A stretch of 15,197 bases of DNA from Syntrophaceae bacterium (GTDB lineage Bacteria; Desulfobacterota; Syntrophorhabdia; Syntrophorhabdales; WCHB1-27). Positions 518 to 15,117 of the stretch are shown here, in pieces; position 1 is the first letter of the stretch; every line of letters starts with the position of its first letter. Both the position numbers and the translations under genes were made by a program. The notes below the pieces were generated by a model that was not told the origin of the DNA, did not search any database, and saw nothing but the letters and a program-made list of their open reading frames with translations. Where the stretch lies: the NCBI GenBank assembly GCA_003165115.1, contig PLSJ01000484.1:5317-20513 (forward strand), written 5' to 3'.

Positions 518-2161
518 GTGGGGAAAATATTGCCGGATCGGGAACCGTCGGTAGAAAGACGCTATTTCTACAAGCTTATGTCTCACTTCGTGGGCGTCCT
601 CATGGGGTTCGCCGTCATGGTGTTCGTCCCACGGTCACTCGGTCCCGTCAATTTCGGGTATTTTGAGTTCGTTACCGATAATTTCACTACTATCCTGACC
701 ACCCTCTCCCTTTCTTTTCCGTCTGCCTATTTTTACTGGATATCCCGAAAAGGGCACAAGGAGAATTGCGACGTCGCAACGGGGGTCAATATTTTATGGC
801 ACGTGGGTGTCATTATCTTCTTTGCCGTCTTTCTCGGTGCATCGGTCGCCGGAGGATTTCATTCATATATATGGCCGAAGATCCCGGTGTGGGTGTTATG
901 GAGCGGCCTGTTTTTCGCCGGCTTTTCCTTTTTGTTTCAGTTCCTGAATTACATCGCCGACGGAAGGGCGTTGACCGTGGATCTGGAGCGGTTCCGGATG
1001 GCGCAAAACATCCTGCGGGCGAGCGGCCTGGCAATCCTGTTCTTTATCGGCTTCCTGACGCTGCGGACCTATTTTTTGCTCCAGACCTCCGTGCTCGCGA
1101 TGATAGTGCTCGGACTGGGAGTACAACTGGCCCGGAAGAAGGCCCTCAACCCGATGTCCTTCGGACTTTGGAGACATCGATGGCGGGATATCGCGGCATA
1201 TCTCACCTTCACGAAGGATTACGTGAAGCCTCTCTTATGGCTGTACCTTTTCAATGTGGGTTATTCGCTGTACGACCGCTGGTTCCTGCAGGTTATCGGT
1301 GGACCGGAAGAACAGGGCTTTTACGGCATTGCCTTCAAGTTCGGGGCATTGGCCTTCATTTTTACGAGTGCTATGACCCCCATCCTCACCAGGGAATTCG
1401 CGCATGCATACGAAGAGGGAGATAAGGAAAGACTGCGGGGTCTTTTTAACCGGATTCAGGTCTTTCTCTTCATCGCGACCGTGTGCGGGGTATACATATC
1501 GGTTCAAAGCGGGAACATAGTGCGCCTGGTCGCGGGAAAGGAGTTTTTGCCCGCGGTCGTGCCTATCTCCATAATGGCTCTTTATCCGATCCATCAAACC
1601 TTCGGGCAGCTCAGCGCGGCGTTGTTGTTGTCCACCGGTCAAACACGGTTGTTCGGCATCATCGGCATACTGGTTATGGTGCTCGGGGTCCCTCTCACGT
1701 ATTTTTTGATCGCGCCGAGGCGGTTTCCCCTTCCGGGAATGGAGATGGGGGCGATGGGTCTCGCGATAAAAATGATCGTCGTCCAAATAATAGGGACCAA
1801 CCTCCAGCTCTATTTCAATGCCAGGTATCTCGGTTTTTCATTTGCAAAATGGCTGTGGTTCCAGGCAAGGGTGATAGCGATAGTCTATACGATAGCCGGT
1901 CTGTCGAAAATGACCGAGCGACTGGGTGATGTGCATTGGAACGACCATATCGCCGGCATGTGGCTGCCGAAGAATGCGGCGCTTCACACGGTCCTTCCGA
2001 AAATGGTCTTCTTCGGGATGACCTATTTCCTGCTCGTCGCGATCCTGATAACGGTGTACCCGTCGATAGCAGGCATCTCCTGCGATGAGATAAAGCGCTA
2101 CTTTATCGGCCCGGCGACAGGCCGCATTGCACGGTCGCTCCGAAGGAGGAAGGGACGGTGA
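518..2161 (+). CDS. Wzx-type polysaccharide flippase (MOP superfamily)
   Basis: An integral membrane protein of 547 residues with many hydrophobic segments along its length, of the oligosaccharide flippase type in the MOP exporter superfamily. Such proteins move undecaprenyl-diphosphate-linked repeat units across the inner membrane. The N-terminus has the family look: a short charged lead, then the first membrane helix, then VPRSLGPVNFGYFEF (compare PRxLGPxxFG). A GTG start at 518 is chosen because it keeps the RRYFYK lead seen in these proteins and has AGGAAG at 502-507 about 10 bases upstream; the in-frame ATG at 578 would remove it. The protein is longer than usual for Wzx (roughly 400-500), with a polar stretch between hydrophobic segments in its last 90 residues. 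It follows the NeuB-like gene by 4 bases and its stop overlaps the next GTG (GTGA). Substrate specificity cannot be read from the sequence. Confidence 0.85.
   Translation: MGKILPDREPSVERRYFYKLMSHFVGVLMGFAVMVFVPRSLGPVNFGYFEFVTDNFTTILTTLSLSFPSAYFYWISRKGHKENCDVATGVNILWHVGVIIFFAVFLGASVAGGFHSYIWPKIPVWVLWSGLFFAGFSFLFQFLNYIADGRALTVDLERFRMAQNILRASGLAILFFIGFLTLRTYFLLQTSVLAMIVLGLGVQLARKKALNPMSFGLWRHRWRDIAAYLTFTKDYVKPLLWLYLFNVGYSLYDRWFLQVIGGPEEQGFYGIAFKFGALAFIFTSAMTPILTREFAHAYEEGDKERLRGLFNRIQVFLFIATVCGVYISVQSGNIVRLVAGKEFLPAVVPISIMALYPIHQTFGQLSAALLLSTGQTRLFGIIGILVMVLGVPLTYFLIAPRRFPLPGMEMGAMGLAIKMIVVQIIGTNLQLYFNARYLGFSFAKWLWFQARVIAIVYTIAGLSKMTERLGDVHWNDHIAGMWLPKNAALHTVLPKMVFFGMTYFLLVAILITVYPSIAGISCDEIKRYFIGPATGRIARSLRRRKGR
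2143..2150 (+). promoter_or_regulatory. Strong ribosome binding site for the three-domain gene
   Basis: AAGGAGGA lies 7 bases before the GTG at 2158, inside the 3' end of the flippase gene. It is close to the perfect anti-16S complement and is the best Shine-Dalgarno I see in the window. It supports the GTG start and suggests that this protein is well translated within the polycistron. Confidence 0.75.
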
Positions 2162-4677
2162 AGGCGGTGATTTTAGCGGCGGGGTACGGCAACCGCTTGC
2201 GTCCCCTGACGGAGAACACGCACAAGACATTGCTGGTGGTCAACGGCAAAACGATCATCGAGGGCATTATCGACAGCCTGCTGGATCACGGCATCGGCGA
2301 CATAACCATTGTCACGGGGTATCTCGACTCCATGGTGGCCGGTTTTGTCTCGACGAAATACAAGGGAGTCAATTTCACGTTCATTCACAATCCGCGTTAC
2401 GCCGAAACGAATAATATTTATTCTCTCTCCCTGGCGATGAACGGGATAGAGCTCGACGACGATGTCCTTCTGATAGAGTCGGACCTGATCTACGAGCCGT
2501 CGCTGATAAGGCGGATCATCGAATCGAAATACGCGAATGTCGCCCTCGTGGACAGGTTCAGGAGCGGCATGGACGGGACCGTCGTGCCGGTCTCCAACCA
2601 CGTCATCACGAATATTATCCCGCCCCATCTCCAGGACAGCGCGTTCGACTTTACGTACAAGTATAAAACGTTGAATATTTACAAGTTTTCAAAGGAGTTT
2701 TGCCGGACGACGTTCAAACAACTGCTCGCCGACTACGCGAAGGTGATCGATGACAATTGTTATTATGAGCTGGTCCTCGGAATCCTGATCTACATGCAGA
2801 GGGAGACGATTTTCGCGGAAATCGTCGAAGCCGGACAATGGGCGGAGGTGGATGACCCGAACGACCTGGTCGTCGCAGAATTCATTTTCAATAAAGAGAA
2901 CAGGCCCGGTATCCTGGAGGAGAGCTTCGGTGGTTATTGGAATTACAACCTGACGGACTTCTGCTTCATCCGCAACATGTATTTCCCCCACGGCTCGATG
3001 CTGTCGGAAATGAGAAATAATTTGCCCGGTCTGGTAGCCAATTACGGCAGCAGGCAAAAGGTGTTGAACCAGAAACTGGCCTTCTTCCTGCTGTGCAGGA
3101 AGGAAAACCTCAACATGCTGAACGGGGCTTCACAAATTTACCCGATGCTGGCCGCCCGCTTCGGCGGCACGCGTGTCCTGCTGCCTCAGCCGACGTTCGG
3201 AGAGTATCCCCGTATATTCAGGCATTGCGAGTACTACTCCGACCAGGTGGGTATCGACCTCGATCAAGTCGAGGAAAAAGCGAGAGGCTGCGAAACGGTC
3301 GTATTCGTCAATCCCAACAACCCCACCGGAAGCCTGATCGACACGGCATGGATTTTCGATTACGCGGCCAGGGTGCCCGGTAAGACGATCATCGTGGACG
3401 AGTCGTTTATCGATTTTTCACGGGTCGGCTCGATAATCGACCTGCTCGAAGGAAGACCGCTGGAGAACGTCATCGTCATCAAGAGTCTCAGCAAGTCTCT
3501 CGGGATCCCCGGCATCAGGATCGGTTTCACCTACTCCTGCGATCGGGGGTTCAACGAGGCTGTTCACGACAGCCTGCCCATCTGGAACTCCAACAGCTTC
3601 GCGGAATATTTCCTGGAAATCGTCCTGAAGCACAGGAGATCGCTCGAACTCTCCTACAAGGCCACCATCAGGGACCGCGAGGCGTTGGCCGCTCGACTGG
3701 GCGGATTGGACTTCGTGGAACGGGTGTACCCGAGCGGCGGTAATTTTCTCCTGGTCGAATTCAGCAAAGGCCGCACCGAATTATCGTCGTTGACGAAACT
3801 CCTCCTTGCCCGGTACGCCATTCACGTCAAAGATGTCTCCGCCAAATTTACCACCGGCAGGTATTACCTGCGCATCGCGGTCCGGCTGCCCCATGAAAAC
3901 GAGATGCTCGCCGCGGGTATGGAGGAAATATTTCACCGCCACTACGGTCCGAAGTGGAAAGCGGTGTGGAGCGGCCGTCATCTGGGGGAGATCGAAACGT
4001 CCGGAAGAAACGGCGCCATCCTTCGGAGGCTCATAGAAGCGGACGGGTTCGACAGGGGCAACGGAAGGATCGGGGTCGAGGCATGGAAACAATACATCCG
4101 GTCGGTGCGTGAAAGGATCTCATTGAAAGACACGGATTCGCTTTTTGAAGTCGGCTGTGGCTCGGGGGCGTTTCTTTACCCATTCTATCTCGCCGACCAC
4201 CGCGTGGGCGGGATAGATTACTCCGGCCCGCTGATAGCCGCGGCGAGGACAGTCATGACAAATATGGATTTCAGGAATTGCGACGCCATTCATCTGGATT
4301 GCCGGGAGAGCTATGATTATGTGGTCGCCAACAGCGTATTCTTTTACTTTCCCGATTACGGGTACGCCCTGGAGGTCTTGCGAAAAATGCTCAAAAAGTC
4401 GAATAAGGGCGTGTTGGCCCTGGACATCCCGGACCTGAAACGAAGGGAAGAGTGCGAAAGCGCCCGGCGGCAAGCCCTGCCGCCCGGCGAGTACGAAAAA
4501 ATATATCACGGCCTGAGCCATTTATATTTCGATAAAGAGTGGTTCCATGAATTTGGCATGAGAAACAACTGCAAGGTCGATATATTCGACCAAAATATCG
4601 CTGAATACGGAAACGCCAGGTTCCGGTTCAACTGCGTGATCTCGAAAAGCGGACCCGGCGGGCCGGACGATGCCTAA
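2158..4677 (+). CDS. Three-domain fusion: LicC-like nucleotidyltransferase, HisC/CobD-like aminotransferase, SAM methyltransferase
   Basis: 839 residues in three enzyme modules. Residues about 1-245 form a sugar/choline-phosphate nucleotidyltransferase: LAAGYGNRLRPLT near the N-terminus, ESD with D109 as likely metal ligand, and EVDDPNDL at 230-237, as in LicC-type cytidylyltransferases. Residues about 290-605 form a class I/II PLP aminotransferase of the histidinol-phosphate/CobD type: NPNNPTG at 385-391, D414 in VDES, Schiff-base K446 in SLSKSLGIPGIRIG, and R572 in YYLRIAVR. Residues about 650-839 form a class I SAM methyltransferase: EVGCGSG at 664-670 and acidic D687 in GGIDYS. All key residues appear intact. 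Inference: it makes a CDP-activated amino-alcohol phosphate (serinol, ethanolamine or a methylated form) for the LicD protein encoded next. A nucleotide-activated amino sugar is the alternative. GTG start, GTGA overlap upstream and 8-base overlap downstream suggest translational coupling. Domain calls are firm; substrates are not. Confidence 0.85.
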   Translation: MKAVILAAGYGNRLRPLTENTHKTLLVVNGKTIIEGIIDSLLDHGIGDITIVTGYLDSMVAGFVSTKYKGVNFTFIHNPRYAETNNIYSLSLAMNGIELDDDVLLIESDLIYEPSLIRRIIESKYANVALVDRFRSGMDGTVVPVSNHVITNIIPPHLQDSAFDFTYKYKTLNIYKFSKEFCRTTFKQLLADYAKVIDDNCYYELVLGILIYMQRETIFAEIVEAGQWAEVDDPNDLVVAEFIFNKENRPGILEESFGGYWNYNLTDFCFIRNMYFPHGSMLSEMRNNLPGLVANYGSRQKVLNQKLAFFLLCRKENLNMLNGASQIYPMLAARFGGTRVLLPQPTFGEYPRIFRHCEYYSDQVGIDLDQVEEKARGCETVVFVNPNNPTGSLIDTAWIFDYAARVPGKTIIVDESFIDFSRVGSIIDLLEGRPLENVIVIKSLSKSLGIPGIRIGFTYSCDRGFNEAVHDSLPIWNSNSFAEYFLEIVLKHRRSLELSYKATIRDREALAARLGGLDFVERVYPSGGNFLLVEFSKGRTELSSLTKLLLARYAIHVKDVSAKFTTGRYYLRIAVRLPHENEMLAAGMEEIFHRHYGPKWKAVWSGRHLGEIETSGRNGAILRRLIEADGFDRGNGRIGVEAWKQYIRSVRERISLKDTDSLFEVGCGSGAFLYPFYLADHRVGGIDYSGPLIAAARTVMTNMDFRNCDAIHLDCRESYDYVVANSVFFYFPDYGYALEVLRKMLKKSNKGVLALDIPDLKRREECESARRQALPPGEYEKIYHGLSHLYFDKEWFHEFGMRNNCKVDIFDQNIAEYGNARFRFNCVISKSGPGGPDDA

Positions 4678-5449
4678 AAGGGTACCTCCGGGCATCACAA
4701 GCGCAGAGGCGGACGTAACTCAGACCGATGCCCGCGTGAGCGAGACCCTCTTTCGGGAGGCCGCCGCCATCCTACGGAAGAGCGTGGTCTTTTTTTGGCT
4801 GGACCAGGGGAGCCTTCTGGGCTGTATCCGGGACCGGCAGTTGATCGCATGGGACCACGATATCGATTTCGGCGTGTGGAAAGATCGGGCGGACCGGGAC
4901 CTGTTGATCGGCGGCTTCGAGGAGAGGGGCTTTCGCATGGAGGATATTCCGCGGGAGATGGATTGCATCCACTTCGTGCGCGGACGCGGGAAAAAGGTCG
5001 ATATCACGTTTTATGAGCAAAACGGCTCGGCGGCCACCACGATGTGGCTGGCGCCGAGAGGCGGGTTATTCCGGAAAGTGGCGCGAAGAATCGAGGATTG
5101 CCTGGAACAGCCGGGAGGCAGCGAAGGCGGAATCCGGGATAGTACCCTGAAAGTCGTCGCCGTCGATGCCTTTAAAGGGATGGTACGCCGTCTGCCGGAC
5201 TCCTTGCGAAAAAAGATGCTCTCCCGGATCGGCAGCCTGAATCTGCGCTATCCCTGTGCCGGGGTCGTAAAATGGCATGTCCCCCTCGATGTCTTCGGGT
5301 CTTTCAGGGAGATCGATTTCCTCGGTGCGCGTCTGCACATCCCCGCGGAGCCGGAAAAGTATCTCTCCTTCGTGTATGGCGCGGATTGGCGGACGCCGAA
5401 AAGAAAATGGGACTGGTGGAAGGAATGCGGCGGGCTGGAGGCCCTTTAG
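4670..5449 (+). CDS. LicD-family phosphotransferase (phosphocholine-type glycan modification)
   Basis: 259 residues with the LicD/fukutin-like nucleotidyltransferase-fold signature: DQGSLLGCIRD starting at D45, then WDHDIDFGV at 61-69, and a C-terminal YGADWRTPKRKWDWW typical of the family. LicD proteins transfer phosphocholine or similar phospho-alcohols from a CDP carrier to a sugar on surface glycans, in the cytoplasm before export. The usual core motif is WDDDID; here the middle residue of the acidic trio is H63, leaving D62, D64 and D66. The ATG at 4670 overlaps the preceding gene's TAA (4675-4677) by 8 bases, which couples it to a protein with a LicC-like domain. That pairing is the main reason to infer that the two act in sequence. 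No strong Shine-Dalgarno precedes it, consistent with reinitiation. Donor and acceptor are unknown. Confidence 0.8.
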   Translation: MPKRVPPGITSAEADVTQTDARVSETLFREAAAILRKSVVFFWLDQGSLLGCIRDRQLIAWDHDIDFGVWKDRADRDLLIGGFEERGFRMEDIPREMDCIHFVRGRGKKVDITFYEQNGSAATTMWLAPRGGLFRKVARRIEDCLEQPGGSEGGIRDSTLKVVAVDAFKGMVRRLPDSLRKKMLSRIGSLNLRYPCAGVVKWHVPLDVFGSFREIDFLGARLHIPAEPEKYLSFVYGADWRTPKRKWDWWKECGGLEAL

Positions 5450-5466
5450 ACCGTCCGGCGAAGACT

Positions 5467-5471
5467 GGGAG
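5467..5471 (+). promoter_or_regulatory. Ribosome binding site that sets the methyltransferase start
   Basis: GGGAG ends 4 bases before the ATG at 5476, in the 26-base gap after the LicD-like gene. The same frame is open back to 5272, but that extension lies inside the LicD-like gene and does not look like methyltransferase sequence. This site therefore favours 5476. Confidence 0.55.
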
Positions 5472-5475
5472 CACC

Positions 5476-6219
5476 ATGCGAAAACTCTACCAGACTGAAT
5501 GGCACGGTATCCCCTTCGCATCTTTTGCGGAAATGTCTTCAAACCCGGCCGGAGCCGATTTCTATGAGCGTTTCTACGCGGCTTTCTTCGAGAAATACGA
5601 GGATTGGTCACAACTCGACCGGAAATGGGTCCTCGGGAAATTGTCGGTCGCCGATTTCCTGATAAACCAGGCGAGGATTCCGCGAATATCCAGGATACTC
5701 TCTATCGGCTGCGGGCTGGGGATCATCGAGAAAACGCTTATCGACAGGGGCTACCAGGGCGTGGAAGTGACCGAGATCTCGTCGGTCCCGCTGCGCTGGA
5801 TCGCGCGACAGGTCCCCGAACAGAGGATCCACATAGGGCTGCTTCCCGCCTGCGTGCCGGACGGCAGCTTCTATGACGTGGTTTTCCTGTCGGCTGTGGA
5901 GAATTGCTTCGATGCGGAAGAATTGGTCTCCTTGTTAAAGGCAGTGAAAGCAAGGCTCCTGCCCGGCGGGCGCTGCCTGCTGTTCAGCGTTTCCTTCGAC
6001 TATCGGGTAAAGCCTCTCAGGGGCCTTTTGCGAAAGGTCAAAGCCGCCCTGCTCCTTCTTGGGATCACGACCGGCCTTCGGGGGCCGCGACAGTTCTGGG
6101 GATATATCAGAAGCCCGCTCGAATTGAAAGAGGCCATGCGGCAGGCGGGCTTTAGCGAAATTACCGGCGGCCTGGTCGATCCGGCCCACGACGACACCTA
6201 CTGGATCGAGGGCGTCTAG
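5476..6219 (+). CDS. Class I SAM-dependent methyltransferase
   Basis: 247 residues from ATG 5476. A Rossmann-fold methyltransferase core is visible: SIGCGLG at 76-82 (motif I, glycines 78, 80 and 82), an acidic residue (E100) at the end of the next strand, DVVFLSAVENCF (motif II region) and LLPGGRCLLFSVS (motif III). About 70 residues precede the core and a basic, hydrophobic stretch follows it (RGLLRKVKAALLLLG), which might touch the membrane or form part of a substrate lid. It lies 26 bases after the LicD-like gene and 43 before the next start. Inference: it methylates a sugar hydroxyl, or the transferred amino-alcohol or phosphate group. It is unlike the methyltransferase domain of the upstream fusion in its visible motifs, so a simple duplication is not evident. 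Substrate unknown. Confidence 0.75.
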   Translation: MRKLYQTEWHGIPFASFAEMSSNPAGADFYERFYAAFFEKYEDWSQLDRKWVLGKLSVADFLINQARIPRISRILSIGCGLGIIEKTLIDRGYQGVEVTEISSVPLRWIARQVPEQRIHIGLLPACVPDGSFYDVVFLSAVENCFDAEELVSLLKAVKARLLPGGRCLLFSVSFDYRVKPLRGLLRKVKAALLLLGITTGLRGPRQFWGYIRSPLELKEAMRQAGFSEITGGLVDPAHDDTYWIEGV

Positions 6220-9562: not shown

Positions 9563-10876
9563 ATGGTCAAATATCTGCTACGCTTCATCGAATATTCGAT
9601 AGACCTCGTCCTTATCGCCGTTCTTTTTTTCGACCTGACCGCCAATTATTGGGTCCGGGCGATGGTGGAAGGCCGGGTTTCTTACGTCATCCTCGCACTC
9701 TTTTTCTGGTCCCTGTTCCTTGCGCTGATGGGCAAGAGAAAGGATATGCGTCTTACCGGGGGCGTGCTTCGGGTATTGATATCGATCGCGTGCTTCGGGG
9801 CATGGGCGTTCGTCAATTTCCTTTTCGATTCCGGCGATTATGCAAGCCGCCTGAGAATCTACACCTCTCTGGTCGCGGGCTGCATCATTGCCGCCGCCGG
9901 TATCCTGAGGCCGGGGAAATTCTTCGACATCCGTCTCCTTTCAGGCATCTACGCCCTGATGATAATCCTTTCGGCCTATGCGCTGCTCTTTTATCCATCC
10001 TATCTGGAGTCGATGAACGTCGATGCCCCATTCGTCTTCTACAGCCTGCCGGGCGAGGTGGATAAAAATTCCTTCGCCTACATGCTCCTGTTCGGTTTCC
10101 TTATAGGTCTCTATATACTCCATCACATCGAGAGCACGCTCCCGAGAAGGCTCATGTACCTGCCCCAGCTATTCCTTGTTGCCCTGCTTTTCAACACGGG
10201 TTCCAGGCAGGCCCTTCTCATGATGCTCGTCTTTGTGCTCGTTTACGTGAAAAACATCGCGCCTTATTTACTGCGGTCCCGCAAGGCCCTCGTCAGGCAT
10301 CTCTTTTTCGCCCTGCTGGCCGTGCTCGTCCTTTCGGCCCTGGTGCTCTCTTCCGGCAATGCACGACTGCTCTTTTACCGGCTCGGGTTTGCGCCGGACG
10401 AGGGTGGCGAATACGGCGAGACGGCACAGAGAAGCGATGAGCTGAGGAAGCAGGTTTCGGCGGACAGCCTCGGCAGGTTCCTCTCCTCTCCCATAACAGG
10501 GACCGGCCCGGCGGATACCGTCATCGAACAAACCCAAAGTTTTGAGGTGTCGGAGCATAACTACCTGTTGCACCTAGCCTCCAGCGAGGGGATTATCGGG
10601 CTCGCGTGCTTCATCGCGATATTTTTCTTCGCGTACCGGTGTTTTCACCGCGCGGCGTCCCGGTGTGAAGGAAAGACCTTGGGCGACGTCGTCCCGGTTG
10701 CGGTCATTCAATCGATGCTCGCGATAGTTTTTTTGAGCCTGCTCTTTTCTCCGATGAAGAACCTGCACTGGATAGTGCTCGCGTGGGTCGTCAATTTTAC
10801 ACAGATGCCGCGTGAGTCCGCGCCGTTCCCGCCTCCTCGTCGGGAAGAGGCGGTCATGATCGGTGACGGGATATGA
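9563..10876 (+). CDS. Wzy/WaaL-like O-antigen polymerase or ligase
   Basis: 437 residues, largely hydrophobic with roughly ten or more membrane segments and one larger polar loop near residues 275-320. Matching signs of the O-antigen ligase/polymerase family are FNTGSRQALLMML (the tgSR motif at the start of a membrane segment) and, after the loop, GTGPAD...EHNYLLHLASSEGIIGL, the equivalent of the HNxYL...GxxGL motif. Such proteins join repeat units at the periplasmic face. Polymerase (Wzy) is the likelier role because a flippase, a priming transferase and a Wzz-type gene are in the same locus, but ligase proteins share these motifs. The ATG at 9563 has only a distant AAGGA upstream. The last four bases overlap the next gene (ATGA). 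Confidence 0.8.
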   Translation: MVKYLLRFIEYSIDLVLIAVLFFDLTANYWVRAMVEGRVSYVILALFFWSLFLALMGKRKDMRLTGGVLRVLISIACFGAWAFVNFLFDSGDYASRLRIYTSLVAGCIIAAAGILRPGKFFDIRLLSGIYALMIILSAYALLFYPSYLESMNVDAPFVFYSLPGEVDKNSFAYMLLFGFLIGLYILHHIESTLPRRLMYLPQLFLVALLFNTGSRQALLMMLVFVLVYVKNIAPYLLRSRKALVRHLFFALLAVLVLSALVLSSGNARLLFYRLGFAPDEGGEYGETAQRSDELRKQVSADSLGRFLSSPITGTGPADTVIEQTQSFEVSEHNYLLHLASSEGIIGLACFIAIFFFAYRCFHRAASRCEGKTLGDVVPVAVIQSMLAIVFLSLLFSPMKNLHWIVLAWVVNFTQMPRESAPFPPPRREEAVMIGDGI

Positions 10877-12045: not shown

Positions 12046-13437
12046 ATGCGCGTGTACCTGTCCAGGCTGGGGATCGCTTTCAGGATTGCCGACACCCTTC
12101 TCATAGTCTGTTCCCTCGTATTCGCCTCCTGGCTGCACGACTACCCCTGGGACCCTCATTTCAGCTTCCTCGCGCTCTGCGCCGCGATCCTCTTCCATTT
12201 CCTCGCGAGACACAGCGGCCTTTATCTTTCATGGCGCGTGACTTCGGGGCTGGAAGAAAGCAAGAGCGTCATCGCCGTCTGGTCGTGCGTCGTCCTCGTC
12301 ATCTTGCTGATCGGGTTCATCACCACCCTTACCGGTGAATACTCCCGCAGGGTCTTCATCACCTGGTTCGCGAGCTCCCAACTGGCCCTCATCTTTTGGC
12401 GCCTGGCCATTCGCGCCTTCCTGAGAACTGTCCGCCGGAAAGGCAAGAACGGAAAGTCCGTCGCCATAGCGGGAGCAGGAGCCCTCGGCGTGAAGGTGGC
12501 CGGCGTCATCCGGAACGCCCCCTGGATGGGGTTCGAGATATATGGCTTTTATGACGATTTCGCGGAAAAGCATAGCAGACCGGTGACAGGGTCGGATGCG
12601 GAAGTGAAAGGCGACCTGGACCGGATGGTAGAGGATGCGGCCACGGACGGCCGCATAAATATCGTCTACATGACGCTGCCCATGAGGGCCGAGGAGCGGT
12701 TGAAAGAAATAGTGGACAAATTGTCCGATACCTCGACTTCGGTCCACCTGGTGCCCGATTTCTTCACCCTGGACCTCCTCAATGCCCGCATGGTGGACAT
12801 GGACGGGATTCCGACCATCAGCGTCTATGAAAGCCCGTTTCACGGTCCCGGCGGGTGGCTCAAGCGGGTGGAAGATATGCTCCTGAGCGGCCTTATCCTG
12901 CTCGGCGCGTTGCCGCTCATGACCGCCATCGCCCTGGGTGTCAAACTTTCGTCTCCCGGACCGGTCTTTTTCACGCAGCGGCGTTACGGCGTGGACGGGA
13001 AGGAGATCGGGGTGCTGAAGTTCAGGACCATGACGGTGTGCGAGGACGGCGCCGTTATCCCGCAGGCCAGGAAGAACGACCGGCGGGTAACGGGGTTTGG
13101 GGCTTTCCTGCGCAAGACTTCCCTGGACGAGCTTCCCCAGTTCATCAACGTGCTGCAGGGGACGATGTCGATAGTCGGCCCGCGGCCGCACGCGGTGGCC
13201 CACAACGAATATTACCGGCGTATCATCCCCCGCTATATGCTGCGGCACAAAGTGAAGCCCGGCATCACCGGGTGGGCGCAGGTCAACGGCTGGCGCGGTG
13301 AGACCGACACGGTCGAAAAGATGGCCAGGAGGGTGCAGTTCGACCTGGACTACATGAGGTGTTGGTCTTTTTGGCTCGACGTGAAAATCATATGCAAGAC
13401 GGTAGCGAAAGGGTTTACGGACAAAAGTGCCTACTAG
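12046..13437 (+). CDS. WcaJ-type polyprenyl-phosphate glycosylphosphotransferase (priming enzyme)
   Basis: 463 residues in the three-part layout of the long family members. Four N-terminal membrane segments (about residues 10-125) come first, then a soluble nucleotide-binding-like domain (about 135-255) beginning SVAIAGAGALGVKVAG. The C-terminal catalytic domain follows from K273: KRVEDMLLSGLILL membrane hairpin, SSPGPVFFTQRRYG, KFRTMTV at 325-331, SLDELPQFINVLQG with the D361-E362 pair, SIVGPRPH, and KPGITGWAQVNGWRGET near the end. Enzymes of this type transfer a hexose-1-phosphate, often glucose-1-phosphate, from UDP-sugar to undecaprenyl phosphate, starting each repeat unit. Length and motifs are complete, so it is probably active. 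It starts 3 bases after the GT4 gene. The first sugar is not certain; glucose or galactose is the usual choice for this group. Confidence 0.92.
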   Translation: MRVYLSRLGIAFRIADTLLIVCSLVFASWLHDYPWDPHFSFLALCAAILFHFLARHSGLYLSWRVTSGLEESKSVIAVWSCVVLVILLIGFITTLTGEYSRRVFITWFASSQLALIFWRLAIRAFLRTVRRKGKNGKSVAIAGAGALGVKVAGVIRNAPWMGFEIYGFYDDFAEKHSRPVTGSDAEVKGDLDRMVEDAATDGRINIVYMTLPMRAEERLKEIVDKLSDTSTSVHLVPDFFTLDLLNARMVDMDGIPTISVYESPFHGPGGWLKRVEDMLLSGLILLGALPLMTAIALGVKLSSPGPVFFTQRRYGVDGKEIGVLKFRTMTVCEDGAVIPQARKNDRRVTGFGAFLRKTSLDELPQFINVLQGTMSIVGPRPHAVAHNEYYRRIIPRYMLRHKVKPGITGWAQVNGWRGETDTVEKMARRVQFDLDYMRCWSFWLDVKIICKTVAKGFTDKSAY

Positions 13438-13553: not shown

Positions 13554-13558
13554 AGGTG

Positions 13559-14098
13559 ATGGAAGAGCGGCGACAGGACGATGAGATCGACCCTATGGAC
13601 TACCTGAGGGTAGTGTGGCGCCATAAACGGCTGATAGCGTCGATCATGGCGGTGGGGGTGGTGGGAACGGCCATAGCCTCCCTGATAATGACACCGGTTT
13701 ACGAGTCGAGGGCCGTGATCGTTCCCGCCGGAATACAGTCCAAAGACCAGGGCGCGGCGTCGGGTTTTCTTGCCATGCAGTTCGGCTTCGCCCCTCCCGT
13801 GACCCCCGCCTCGGTGGAAATCGTCAACCTGCTCAAGAGCAATATCTTGCGCGAAAGGCTCATACGCACGCACGATCTCCTGCCGCTTTTCTTCACGAGA
13901 AAGCAGATGCGGGGAAAGACGGAGAACCAGTTGCTATGGGACGGCATCAGGTACCTCGAAAAAAGGACGACCGTCAACTTTAATCAAAAAGACAACCTGA
14001 TCACCCTCTCCTGCCGATACATGGACCCAGGGAAAGCGCGCGACCTGGCGGCCGGCATGCTCGCGGGCCTGAACGATTATAGCGTTCCCCATAATTAA
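13559..14098 (+). pseudogene. Wzz-type chain-length determinant, truncated by an IS630 insertion
   Basis: The start is typical of the Wzz/chain-length family: DEIDPMDYLRVVWRHKRLI leads into a first membrane helix (about residues 22-44), then TPVYESRAVIVPAG, then FLAMQFGF and ASVEIVNLLKSNILRERLI. Such proteins sit in the inner membrane with a periplasmic domain and set polymer length. The host reading stops at D173; the insertion sequence begins at 14080 and supplies the last codons and the TAA at 14096-14098. The product of 179 residues would lack the periplasmic coiled coil, the second membrane helix and any C-terminal kinase domain, so it is almost certainly not functional. The rest of the gene would lie beyond the right edge of the window. 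A Wzc-like tyrosine kinase cannot be excluded as the original form. Confidence 0.82.
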
Positions 14099-14103
14099 TT
14101 CTC
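14080..14103 (+). repeat. Left terminal inverted repeat of the IS630 element
   Basis: The outer part reads TAGCGTTCCCCATAA and the inner part ends TAATTCTC. It pairs with the reverse complement of 15172-15195 at 20 of 24 positions, with mismatches at repeat positions 1, 5, 10 and 16. It contains the transposase stop codon (14095-14097 on the - strand) and the new stop of the truncated Wzz frame (14096-14098). Confidence 0.85.
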
Positions 14104-15117
14104 GATTGGCGTTGCGGCAGAGGCAACTTTCGTCGGATTATCCATCAACTCGCAAAGAGCGTGATCGGCTCTTTCGATCAGGGCGGCTTTGCTCCTGCAG
14201 TGGATGTTCGTGAAGTGCTCGGCCTTCATGAGGAGCCATATTCGTTCTATGGGGTTGAAGTCGGGCGAATATGGAGGAAGATAGAGAGGCTCGAAGAAAT
14301 GCCAGTTGAGCTTCTTCCGTTTATGCCAGGAGGCGTTGTCGAGGATGAGGATATTCCGTTTTCTGGCGGGTGTGATCGATGCCGCCGCTTCATCGAGGAA
14401 GACCTGAAAAACCTCCGTGTCGCAATGACTCGCCTCAATGGCGAAGAACTCTCCCATGCGAGGACAGACGGTCCCAACAATGTTTAGCCTGACGTGATCG
14501 CCGTTATGGACTACTCGAGGCTTCGATCCTTTGATTGCCCAACTCCGACGCGGTTTCGGCTCGCCGTCAATCCCCGTTTCGTCGCCATACCACAACTCCA
14601 CATCTTCATCTTCTGCAAGAGTGCGCAACCGGACGAGGAACTTCTCGCGGAGTTCTTCATCCTGCCTGTCCGGCCAGGGCTGAGGCACTTTCAAAACATA
14701 GCCCTTTTCATGCAGGAGGCGGCGCACCGTCTCGTACGAACATTCCACCTTATACTTCTCGGCGATATGGCCATGGAAGGCGGTCGCGGTCCAGAAGGTC
14801 CTCTGGGCGCGGCCCGGTTCCTCGAACTCTTCGAGGATCTCCTCCTTTTGACTGCCCGAAATAAGAGGAGTCCGCCCCGGTCTCTTTTTGGCGACGAGGC
14901 CGTCGACGCCGTACAGGTTGAAGGCTCTGACAATCTTTCTTACTGCGTCGTCAGTCAGTTCGACTATTTTCATAACCTGTTCCCGGGTGGAACCGACGAG
15001 GAGCATGATAACGACGAGACATCGCCGATCCGTTTCCTTGTTTCCCGCTTTTCGAGCCGCCTGGAGATCGGCAAGGGATGCGTTCTCGGGATTGGGTGCG
15101 AGAGTCTTCTGGGCCAC
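14095..15117 (-). CDS. IS630-family transposase
   Basis: 340 residues on the - strand. Residues about 20-140 hold helix-turn-helix DNA-binding segments (EQVMKIVELTDDAVRKIVRAF, then SYETVRRLLHEKGYVLK as a second winged-helix-like part). The DDE catalytic core follows with D179 in WYGDETGID, D260 in LILDNASWH and E291 in PPYSPDFNPIERIW, a layout typical of IS630; the D260-E291 spacing of 30 residues is on the short side. All three catalytic residues are present and the frame is uninterrupted, so it could be active. The start is GTG (15115-15117); an ATG 7 bases upstream is out of frame. The stop lies in the left terminal repeat. The enzyme cuts and pastes the element into TA dinucleotides. Confidence 0.92.
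   Translation of the reverse strand: MAQKTLAPNPENASLADLQAARKAGNKETDRRCLVVIMLLVGSTREQVMKIVELTDDAVRKIVRAFNLYGVDGLVAKKRPGRTPLISGSQKEEILEEFEEPGRAQRTFWTATAFHGHIAEKYKVECSYETVRRLLHEKGYVLKVPQPWPDRQDEELREKFLVRLRTLAEDEDVELWYGDETGIDGEPKPRRSWAIKGSKPRVVHNGDHVRLNIVGTVCPRMGEFFAIEASHCDTEVFQVFLDEAAASITPARKRNILILDNASWHKRKKLNWHFFEPLYLPPYSPDFNPIERIWLLMKAEHFTNIHCRSKAALIERADHALCELMDNPTKVASAATPIEN

Follow-up and report, generated by a model that had tools for sequence, protein, structure and literature searches.

Tags of phosphocholine or phosphoethanolamine on surface glycans classically derive from choline that the Lic pathway scavenges. Here we analyzed a 15,197-nt stretch of DNA, referred to below as the window, from a metagenome-assembled genome (MAG; 75.4% complete) of a Syntrophaceae bacterium (GCA_003165115.1, contig PLSJ01000484.1, positions 5,317 to 20,513 of the forward strand). 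The window encodes a fusion protein of three domains: a LicC/PntC-type nucleotidyltransferase (NT), a pyridoxal phosphate (PLP)-dependent domain of the aminotransferase type (AT) and an S-adenosylmethionine (SAM)-dependent methyltransferase (MT). We propose that the fusion protein is probably a self-sufficient maker of cytidine diphosphate (CDP)-activated, N-modified ethanolamine, which would then be transferred to a surface glycan by the LicD-family protein encoded next to it.

A similar fusion is found in PntC-AEPT of Treponema denticola (Tde1415; PDB entries 6pd1 and 6pd2), in which an N-terminal LicC-like cytidylyltransferase is joined to an amine-supplying PLP enzyme. PntC-AEPT is the best whole-chain Foldseek match of the window's protein, and its amine-contacting Glu104 and Glu196 correspond to E107 and E204 of the window's NT. 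However, the PLP domain of PntC-AEPT is a 2-aminoethylphosphonate (AEP) transaminase annotated as "class V" in 6pd1, whereas that of the window is CobD/SMUL_1544-like and matches Aminotran_1_2 only, a difference in PLP subgroup that the original prediction had anticipated. PntC-AEPT also has no methyltransferase domain and serves phosphonates. The nearest annotated relative of the AT domain is SMUL_1544 (6oux), which shares a clade with it at 28-30% identity but is a stand-alone protein in a cobamide operon.

Two surface-glycan systems are also comparable. In the Campylobacter jejuni capsule, known to us by description only, PMC12409886 reports that Cj1436 converts serine phosphate into ethanolamine phosphate and that Cj1437 makes serinol phosphate. 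These are likewise surface-polysaccharide loci making amino-alcohol phosphates, but in that account Cj1436 and Cj1437 are separate proteins, and the amines form amides with glucuronic acid and are not activated with CDP (PMC12409886). In the O-antigen cluster of Proteus mirabilis O18, LicC-like CDP activation and LicD transfer are described next to wzx in PMC8027243. The Lic pathway takes up and phosphorylates external choline (LicB and LicA), whereas the amine of the window's product would come from phosphoserine. No LicA- or LicB-like gene was recognized within the window.

In the proposed route, the AT domain would form phosphoethanolamine by decarboxylating O-phospho-L-serine, which is an intermediate of the ordinary pathway to serine. 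The NT domain would couple phosphoethanolamine to CMP from cytidine triphosphate (CTP) to give CDP-ethanolamine, and the MT domain would methylate the amine with SAM one to three times, before or after the CDP coupling. The neighboring WcaJ, glycosyltransferase and Wzy genes would build an O unit, and the LicD-family protein would then transfer phospho-(N-methyl)ethanolamine to one of its sugars. Each of the four reactions is a prediction, as are the order in which they take place, how many methyl groups are added and which sugar accepts the tag. The original prediction had suggested that one polypeptide makes an activated amino-alcohol phosphate that is possibly methylated; such a route is supported by the sequence, serinol phosphate as the amino alcohol is not, and the adjoining LicD gene, which had been left out, adds a predicted transfer step. 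If the proposal is correct, a single gene together with licD makes surface tags from a central metabolite without outside choline or ethanolamine, and the fusion protein would offer enzyme engineering a CDP-(methyl)ethanolamine synthase in a single polypeptide.

The three-domain fusion and its distribution

The fusion gene, its domains and the adjoining LicD gene are as follows.

2158 to 4677, + strand: NT-AT-MT fusion gene, 839 aa, GTG start, single uninterrupted frame
2158 to 2892, + strand: domain 1, NT (residues 1-245), LicC/PntC-type, predicted CTP:phosphoethanolamine cytidylyltransferase
2905 to 3948, + strand: domain 2, AT (residues about 250-597), PLP fold-type I, predicted O-phospho-L-serine decarboxylase
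3958 to 4656, + strand: domain 3, MT (residues about 601-833), class I SAM methyltransferase, predicted ethanolamine N-methyltransferase
4670 to 5449, + strand: LicD-family transferase (PF04991), 259 aa

The Pfam matches to NTP_transferase (7.5e-13, residues 2-116), Aminotran_1_2 (5.5e-26, residues 291-580) and Methyltransf_12 (5e-10, residues 664-747) were all above the curated cut-offs, and Methyltransf_11 and Methyltransf_25 also matched. The AlphaFold2 model of the whole chain had a mean pLDDT of 92.4 and a pTM of 0.79. The continuous chain of a LicC/PntC-like nucleotidyltransferase, a PLP enzyme and a methyltransferase that had been read from the sequence was thus borne out, as were its key residues, which were all located by script: D109, EVDD 230-233, NPNNPTG 385-391, K446 (the PLP lysine), R572 and EVGCGSG 664-670. 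These domains and residues, like the relatives and the recurring gene neighborhood described below, are observed features.

A homologue search returned 4131 proteins at E<=1e-3, and the counts given here are for the 120 of them that were listed. The three-domain architecture was found in 9 of the 120, that is, in the window's own protein and in eight others that are 48-67% identical to it over 99-100% of the query. Because these eight proteins carry the same three domains, the fusion is genuine and not an assembly accident. Almost all listed homologues (119 of 120) contain NT and AT together, the two-domain NT-AT form being far commoner than the three-domain form, and one (P0014) is an AT-MT fragment. 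The closest relative among the matches listed (P0008, 81% identity) ends where the MT domain begins. Pedobacter (locus L011) encodes the MT separately, in a gene with a 4-nt overlap with the NT-AT gene, and fusion of two such overlapping genes may well be the origin of the three-domain protein.

Homologues were found in 1 of 46 genomes of the window's own order and in 1 of 395 genomes of the phylum sample, in both cases the window's own genome, and in 2 of 351 genomes of the Pedobacter family sample. The distribution of the gene is therefore patchy. Carriage as phage cargo was rejected, as no match occurred in 50,697 phage records, and so was plasmid cargo, with 18 of 72,556 plasmid records matching at E<=1e-30 and only one of the matches (H1) covering 80% of the query. 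Among the plasmid matches, H8 to H18 are rhizobial relatives of 25-32% identity, including one of Sinorhizobium fredii NGR234; several of them cover the AT part alone, and they are mostly annotated as histidinol-phosphate transaminase.

Predicted activities of the three domains

The solved structures nearest to the NT domain were LicC (1jyk, 2.7e-18) and PntC (6pd1, 3.6e-12) in a sequence search, and a profile search gave the same order (LicC, 3.4e-25; PntC, 6.9e-20). E107 and E204 were invariant in two alignments (20 of 20 and 18 of 18 rows). In the profile alignment, with the chain index taken as residue number, they align with Glu104 and Glu196 of PntC, where LicC has Asp. PMC6697681 places both PntC glutamates near the primary amine of AEP and describes the aspartates of LicC at the two places as part of a larger pocket for choline. 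Since E107 and E204 match the amine-contacting glutamates of PntC, we read the NT pocket as suited to a small primary or little-methylated amine, and methylation to choline, if any, may therefore follow the CDP coupling. The NT domain is thus predicted to be a CTP:phosphoethanolamine cytidylyltransferase. A sugar-1-phosphate nucleotidyltransferase, which in the form of an enzyme for hexose-1-phosphates only had been named as evidence that would count against the original prediction, was rejected on sequence, with LicC and PntC as the nearest structures and the PntC-type glutamates present.

The AT domain was then compared with the known PLP families. Its best NCBIfam match was CobD (TIGR01140, 161.7 bits against a cut-off of 290.55), followed by HisC (TIGR01141, 128 bits against a cut-off of 276.55), both below the cut-off. 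In a maximum-likelihood tree of 70 AT rows (23 of 93 rows had been excluded beforehand, by locus range and not by residues, and the bootstrap was not fully settled), a branch with support of 100/99 set apart the 28 NT-AT rows, 6oux and L018, a Dehalococcoidia MAG locus in which AT is a separate gene. HisC was separate at 100/100, the two CobD rows fell elsewhere, and the fork joining 6oux to the diverged NT-AT rows had support of 91/65. PDB entry 6oux is titled as the decarboxylase SMUL_1544 of Sulfurospirillum multivorans. When plasmid records were searched with a diverged NT-AT protein, a Sulfurospirillum gene in a cobalamin operon was found that is annotated as "norcobamide biosynthesis serine-O-phosphate decarboxylase"; its product agrees with the sequence given for 6oux and shares 30% identity with the window's AT domain.

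A similar picture emerged when AT rows were aligned with PDB chains and with CobD and HisC of the window's genome. D267, F417, S443, W476, A574 and R576 were present in all 17 NT-AT rows and in both CobD rows, and 6oux matched NT-AT at the five sites that it covers (F417, S443, W476, A574 and R576). The four HisC rows had K/R, Y, T, F/Y, T/S and G at the same six sites. The table of these sites holds no diverged NT-AT rows, which are in the tree, and 54 of the 67 loci L020 to L086 gave a usable open reading frame (ORF). Plain HisC was rejected on its score and on residues that differ at all six sites, and plain CobD on its score.

Because the tree, the CobD-type residues and the nearest annotated relative agree, the AT domain is more likely an O-phospho-L-serine decarboxylase making ethanolamine phosphate than a serinol-phosphate transaminase. 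The latter activity had been favored in the original prediction, which took the domain for a HisC/CobD-like aminotransferase that, like Cj1437, converts dihydroxyacetone phosphate into serinol phosphate; the NT domain would then make CDP-serinol. Both chemistries do occur in this enzyme group, since Cj1436 and Cj1437 lie side by side in one capsule locus according to PMC12409886, and the fold comparison, in which CobD, SMUL_1544 and HisC chains were tied within a few Z units, fails to separate transaminase from decarboxylase. However, the AT domain lacks the HisC-type residues at six of six sites and groups with the serine-phosphate decarboxylase, and Cj1437 enters the comparison by description only; we regard the serinol route as unlikely. 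The alignments listed by the whole-model fold search cover residues 250-597 only, so that NT and MT were barely tested there.

If the AT domain acted as CobD does, it would convert O-phospho-L-threonine into 1-amino-2-propanol phosphate, and the NT domain would form CDP-aminopropanol. CobD is indeed the best NCBIfam match, and CobD structures are among the closest folds, but the domain groups with the serine-phosphate enzyme and apart from the CobD rows, and the genome has its own CobD elsewhere (L087, 339.8 bits, over the family cut-off). Use of phosphothreonine is thus very unlikely in our judgment.

The MT domain, whose model has a pLDDT of 92 and a pTM of 0.90, is predicted to be an N-methyltransferase acting on the nitrogen of ethanolamine. 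In sequence and in fold, it matched the phosphoethanolamine N-methyltransferases of plants, nematodes and Plasmodium no better than other small-molecule methyltransferases. Genes of the same MT family were found in 4 of 12 NT-AT genomes at E<=1e-30, and separate genes of this family stand beside NT-AT in loci L009, L011, L015, L017 and Gloeothece L147. NT-AT, MT and LicD genes lie in a row, unfused, in Pedobacter L011 (Pedobacter sandarakinus) and, on a plasmid, in Gloeothece L147 (Gloeothece verrucosa PCC 7822). Another explanation is that NT and AT act as proposed while MT is joined to them for co-expression only and has a different target, such as a sugar, the phosphate or a lipid-linked unit. 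Neither sequence nor fold assigns the MT family a substrate, and standalone relatives are common (479 matches), as this explanation would have it. On the other hand, the same-family genes in the 12 genomes are all four within 1.4 kb of NT-AT, and diverged relatives of NT-AT have other amine-modifying families in that place. We consider a different MT substrate somewhat unlikely and retain methylation of the ethanolamine nitrogen as the predicted activity.

CDP-alcohol partners and diverged relatives of NT-AT

The LicD-family ORF overlaps the 3' end of the fusion gene by 8 nt and is the sole LicD match in the Syntrophaceae genome. Its PF04991 match (41 bits, cut-off 22.6) covers residues 42-71 only, which are 30 residues of the profile, and its best NCBIfam match was the Mf1 cholinephosphotransferase at 51.7 bits, under the cut-off of 225. 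In PMC11982090, the LicD-family protein Mf1 is reported to use CDP donors for the transfer of both phosphocholine and phosphoethanolamine. By analogy, the predicted role of the window's LicD protein is to take the phospho-amino-alcohol from its CDP carrier and attach it to the glycan.

We then examined 28 NT-AT genomes: the window's genome, 11 of the 12-genome NT-AT set (not G435), G508 and 15 further Fibrobacterota genomes. The set covers 17 of the 23 Fibrobacterota genomes with NT-AT, those omitted being G787, G811, G812, G818, G879 and G896. A LicD match was present in 18 of the 28, and in 14 of these 18 it was within 5 kb of NT-AT, where random placement expects 0.1. One match (G430) is below the family cut-off, and without it the count is 13 of 17; 30 of the 34 LicD rows were used for the distances, the other four being second pieces of the same genes. 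Other partners were also found. CDP-OH_P_transf genes lie beside NT-AT in L010 (weak), L130, L018, Rahnella and Erwinia, and Glyphos_transf genes in L016 and L126. LicD, CDP-alcohol phosphotransferase and Glyphos_transf families all use CDP-alcohols, and such partners therefore fit a cytidylyltransferase role for NT-AT.

Several observations weigh against the CDP-ethanolamine proposal. The random-placement null is lenient, since LicD and NT-AT both favor polysaccharide clusters, and 10 of the 28 NT-AT genomes have no LicD match. In addition, a phosphoenolpyruvate (PEP) mutase lies within 5 kb of NT-AT in two of the 28 genomes (L017 and L133), and some NT-AT proteins may have a phosphonate role. 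In such a role, the AT domain would decarboxylate phosphonoalanine, the C-P analogue of phosphoserine, to AEP, and the NT domain would form CMP-AEP as PntC does. The PntC-type glutamates, the whole-chain Foldseek match to PntC-AEPT and the phosphonopyruvate-decarboxylase-like genes that accompany the PEP mutase in L017 and L133 all speak for it. However, PEP mutase (PF13714) matches are near NT-AT in only those two genomes, each of the two clusters holds a separate cytidylyltransferase-like domain, and no PF13714 match was found in the window's genome at its 75.4% completeness. For the window's protein the phosphonate route is quite unlikely, and we continue to favor CDP-ethanolamine as its product.

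Both L017 (5246-9753) and L133 (2921-8212) have PEP mutase, phosphonopyruvate-decarboxylase-like and cytidylyltransferase-like genes by NT-AT. L017 also has a class V aminotransferase and a methyltransferase of the same family as the window's MT there, and L133 an iron alcohol dehydrogenase. In both, the phosphonate and NT-AT modules share one cluster.

More distant relatives of NT-AT have other genes in the position of MT. NT-AT was found in 23 of 167 Fibrobacterota genomes, in 10 at 56-61% identity and in 13 at 35-37%. Twelve diverged loci (34-37% identical) were fetched, 11 from Fibrobacterota and one from a Sphingobacteriaceae-family genome. In 10 of the 12, a gene overlaps the 3' end of NT-AT, and this gene is Octopine_DH-like in six loci and OCD-like in four (three of the six and three of the four were confirmed by Pfam, the remainder by BLAST cluster). 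Of the other two loci, L134 stops at a contig edge and L141 has no such gene. Across L135 to L144 the octopine-dehydrogenase-like and OCD-like genes alternate at the NT-AT 3' end.

Because two unrelated reductase families hold the same place, these genes suggest reductive N-alkylation of the amine, and they are gene candidates for N-carboxyalkyl ethanolamine phosphate. One such compound, N-[(R)-1-carboxyethyl]ethanolamine phosphate, is given as a Proteus O-antigen component in PMC9630907. PMC5560731, on the O clusters of Proteus, mentions neither licD nor aminotransferase nor ethanolamine in its main text. If the proposal holds, the opine-dehydrogenase and OCD variants become candidates for the genes behind the known O-antigen component N-carboxyethyl-ethanolamine phosphate.

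We tentatively suggest, as a possibility short of a probable reading, that NT-AT is a widespread, modular and choline-independent route to zwitterionic tags. A phosphoserine decarboxylase-cytidylyltransferase core would make CDP-ethanolamine and an exchangeable third slot would set the tag: MT for N-methylated ethanolamine up to choline, and a reductase for N-carboxyalkyl ethanolamine such as R-Cet-EtnP of Proteus O antigens. If so, the route is carried widely by environmental bacteria and some archaea. A 2023 survey states that some phosphocholine-bearing species have no known route and that novel pathways may await identification (PMC10434233); the methyltransferase form of NT-AT could be one of the missing phosphocholine pathways. 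The LicC/PntC logic, serine-phosphate decarboxylase and LicD transfer are each known singly. In the open literature searched (subscription papers and preprints were outside its scope), no paper was found that describes the fusion of a nucleotidyltransferase with either a serine-phosphate decarboxylase or a methyltransferase, and no description was found of their union with a methyltransferase in one chain and an exchangeable amine-modifying slot.

Some NT-AT relatives lie in other settings. In the Fibrobacterota loci L126 to L129 and L131, NT-AT follows a conserved run of Glyphos_transf-like, DUF3413/sulfatase (YejM/PbgA-like) and YidC-like genes with no LicD (Pfam was run on L126), an arrangement perhaps for membrane-lipid or lipid A use. 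Rahnella (L149) and Erwinia rhapontici (L150) carry near-identical plasmid islands with NT-AT, CDP-alcohol phosphatidyltransferase, HAD, HAD-IIIC, SDR, ATP-grasp and MFS genes. On plasmid pBM700 of Priestia megaterium (L151), an NT-AT relative of 31% identity stands beside two ATP-grasp genes and AAC(3)-type acetyltransferase, DXR-like and isoprenoid enzyme genes, in what looks like a small natural-product cluster.

The surrounding polysaccharide cluster

By its gene content, the window is part of a surface-polysaccharide cluster. The other features, identified by Pfam and NCBIfam scans unless stated otherwise, are as follows.

1 to 513: NeuB-type synthase, 3' end only
518 to 2161, + strand: polytopic membrane protein, 547 aa, putative O-unit flippase (Wzx), from hydrophobic sequence and position
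5272 to 6219: second methyltransferase-like ORF
Elsewhere in the window: two group-1 glycosyltransferases and one family-2 glycosyltransferase
9563 to 10876, + strand: Wzy-type polymerase/ligase (PF04932 Wzy_C, 43.4 bits, cut-off 31.7)
12046 to 13437, + strand: WcaJ-type undecaprenyl-phosphate glucose phosphotransferase, glycan-initiating (TIGR03023, 536 bits, cut-off 411; Bac_transf)
Starting at 13556: Wzz-type ORF, 180 aa (Wzz, 9.5e-12)

The 547-aa membrane protein, whose ORF is overlapped by the fusion gene by 4 nt, had no Pfam match even at E<=1 and no NCBIfam match. From its hydrophobicity and gene position it is probably the Wzx flippase, and in Pedobacter L011 a Polysacc_synt protein occupies the equivalent position. 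Outside the window, neuB is preceded on the contig by a CTP_transf_3 (CMP-sugar synthetase-like) gene and, further out, by an ABC transporter. At the other end, the Wzz-type ORF extends to the edge of a DDE_3 transposase gene on the opposite strand (14095-15117); the transposase gene seems to have been inserted into the chain-length gene and to have cut it.

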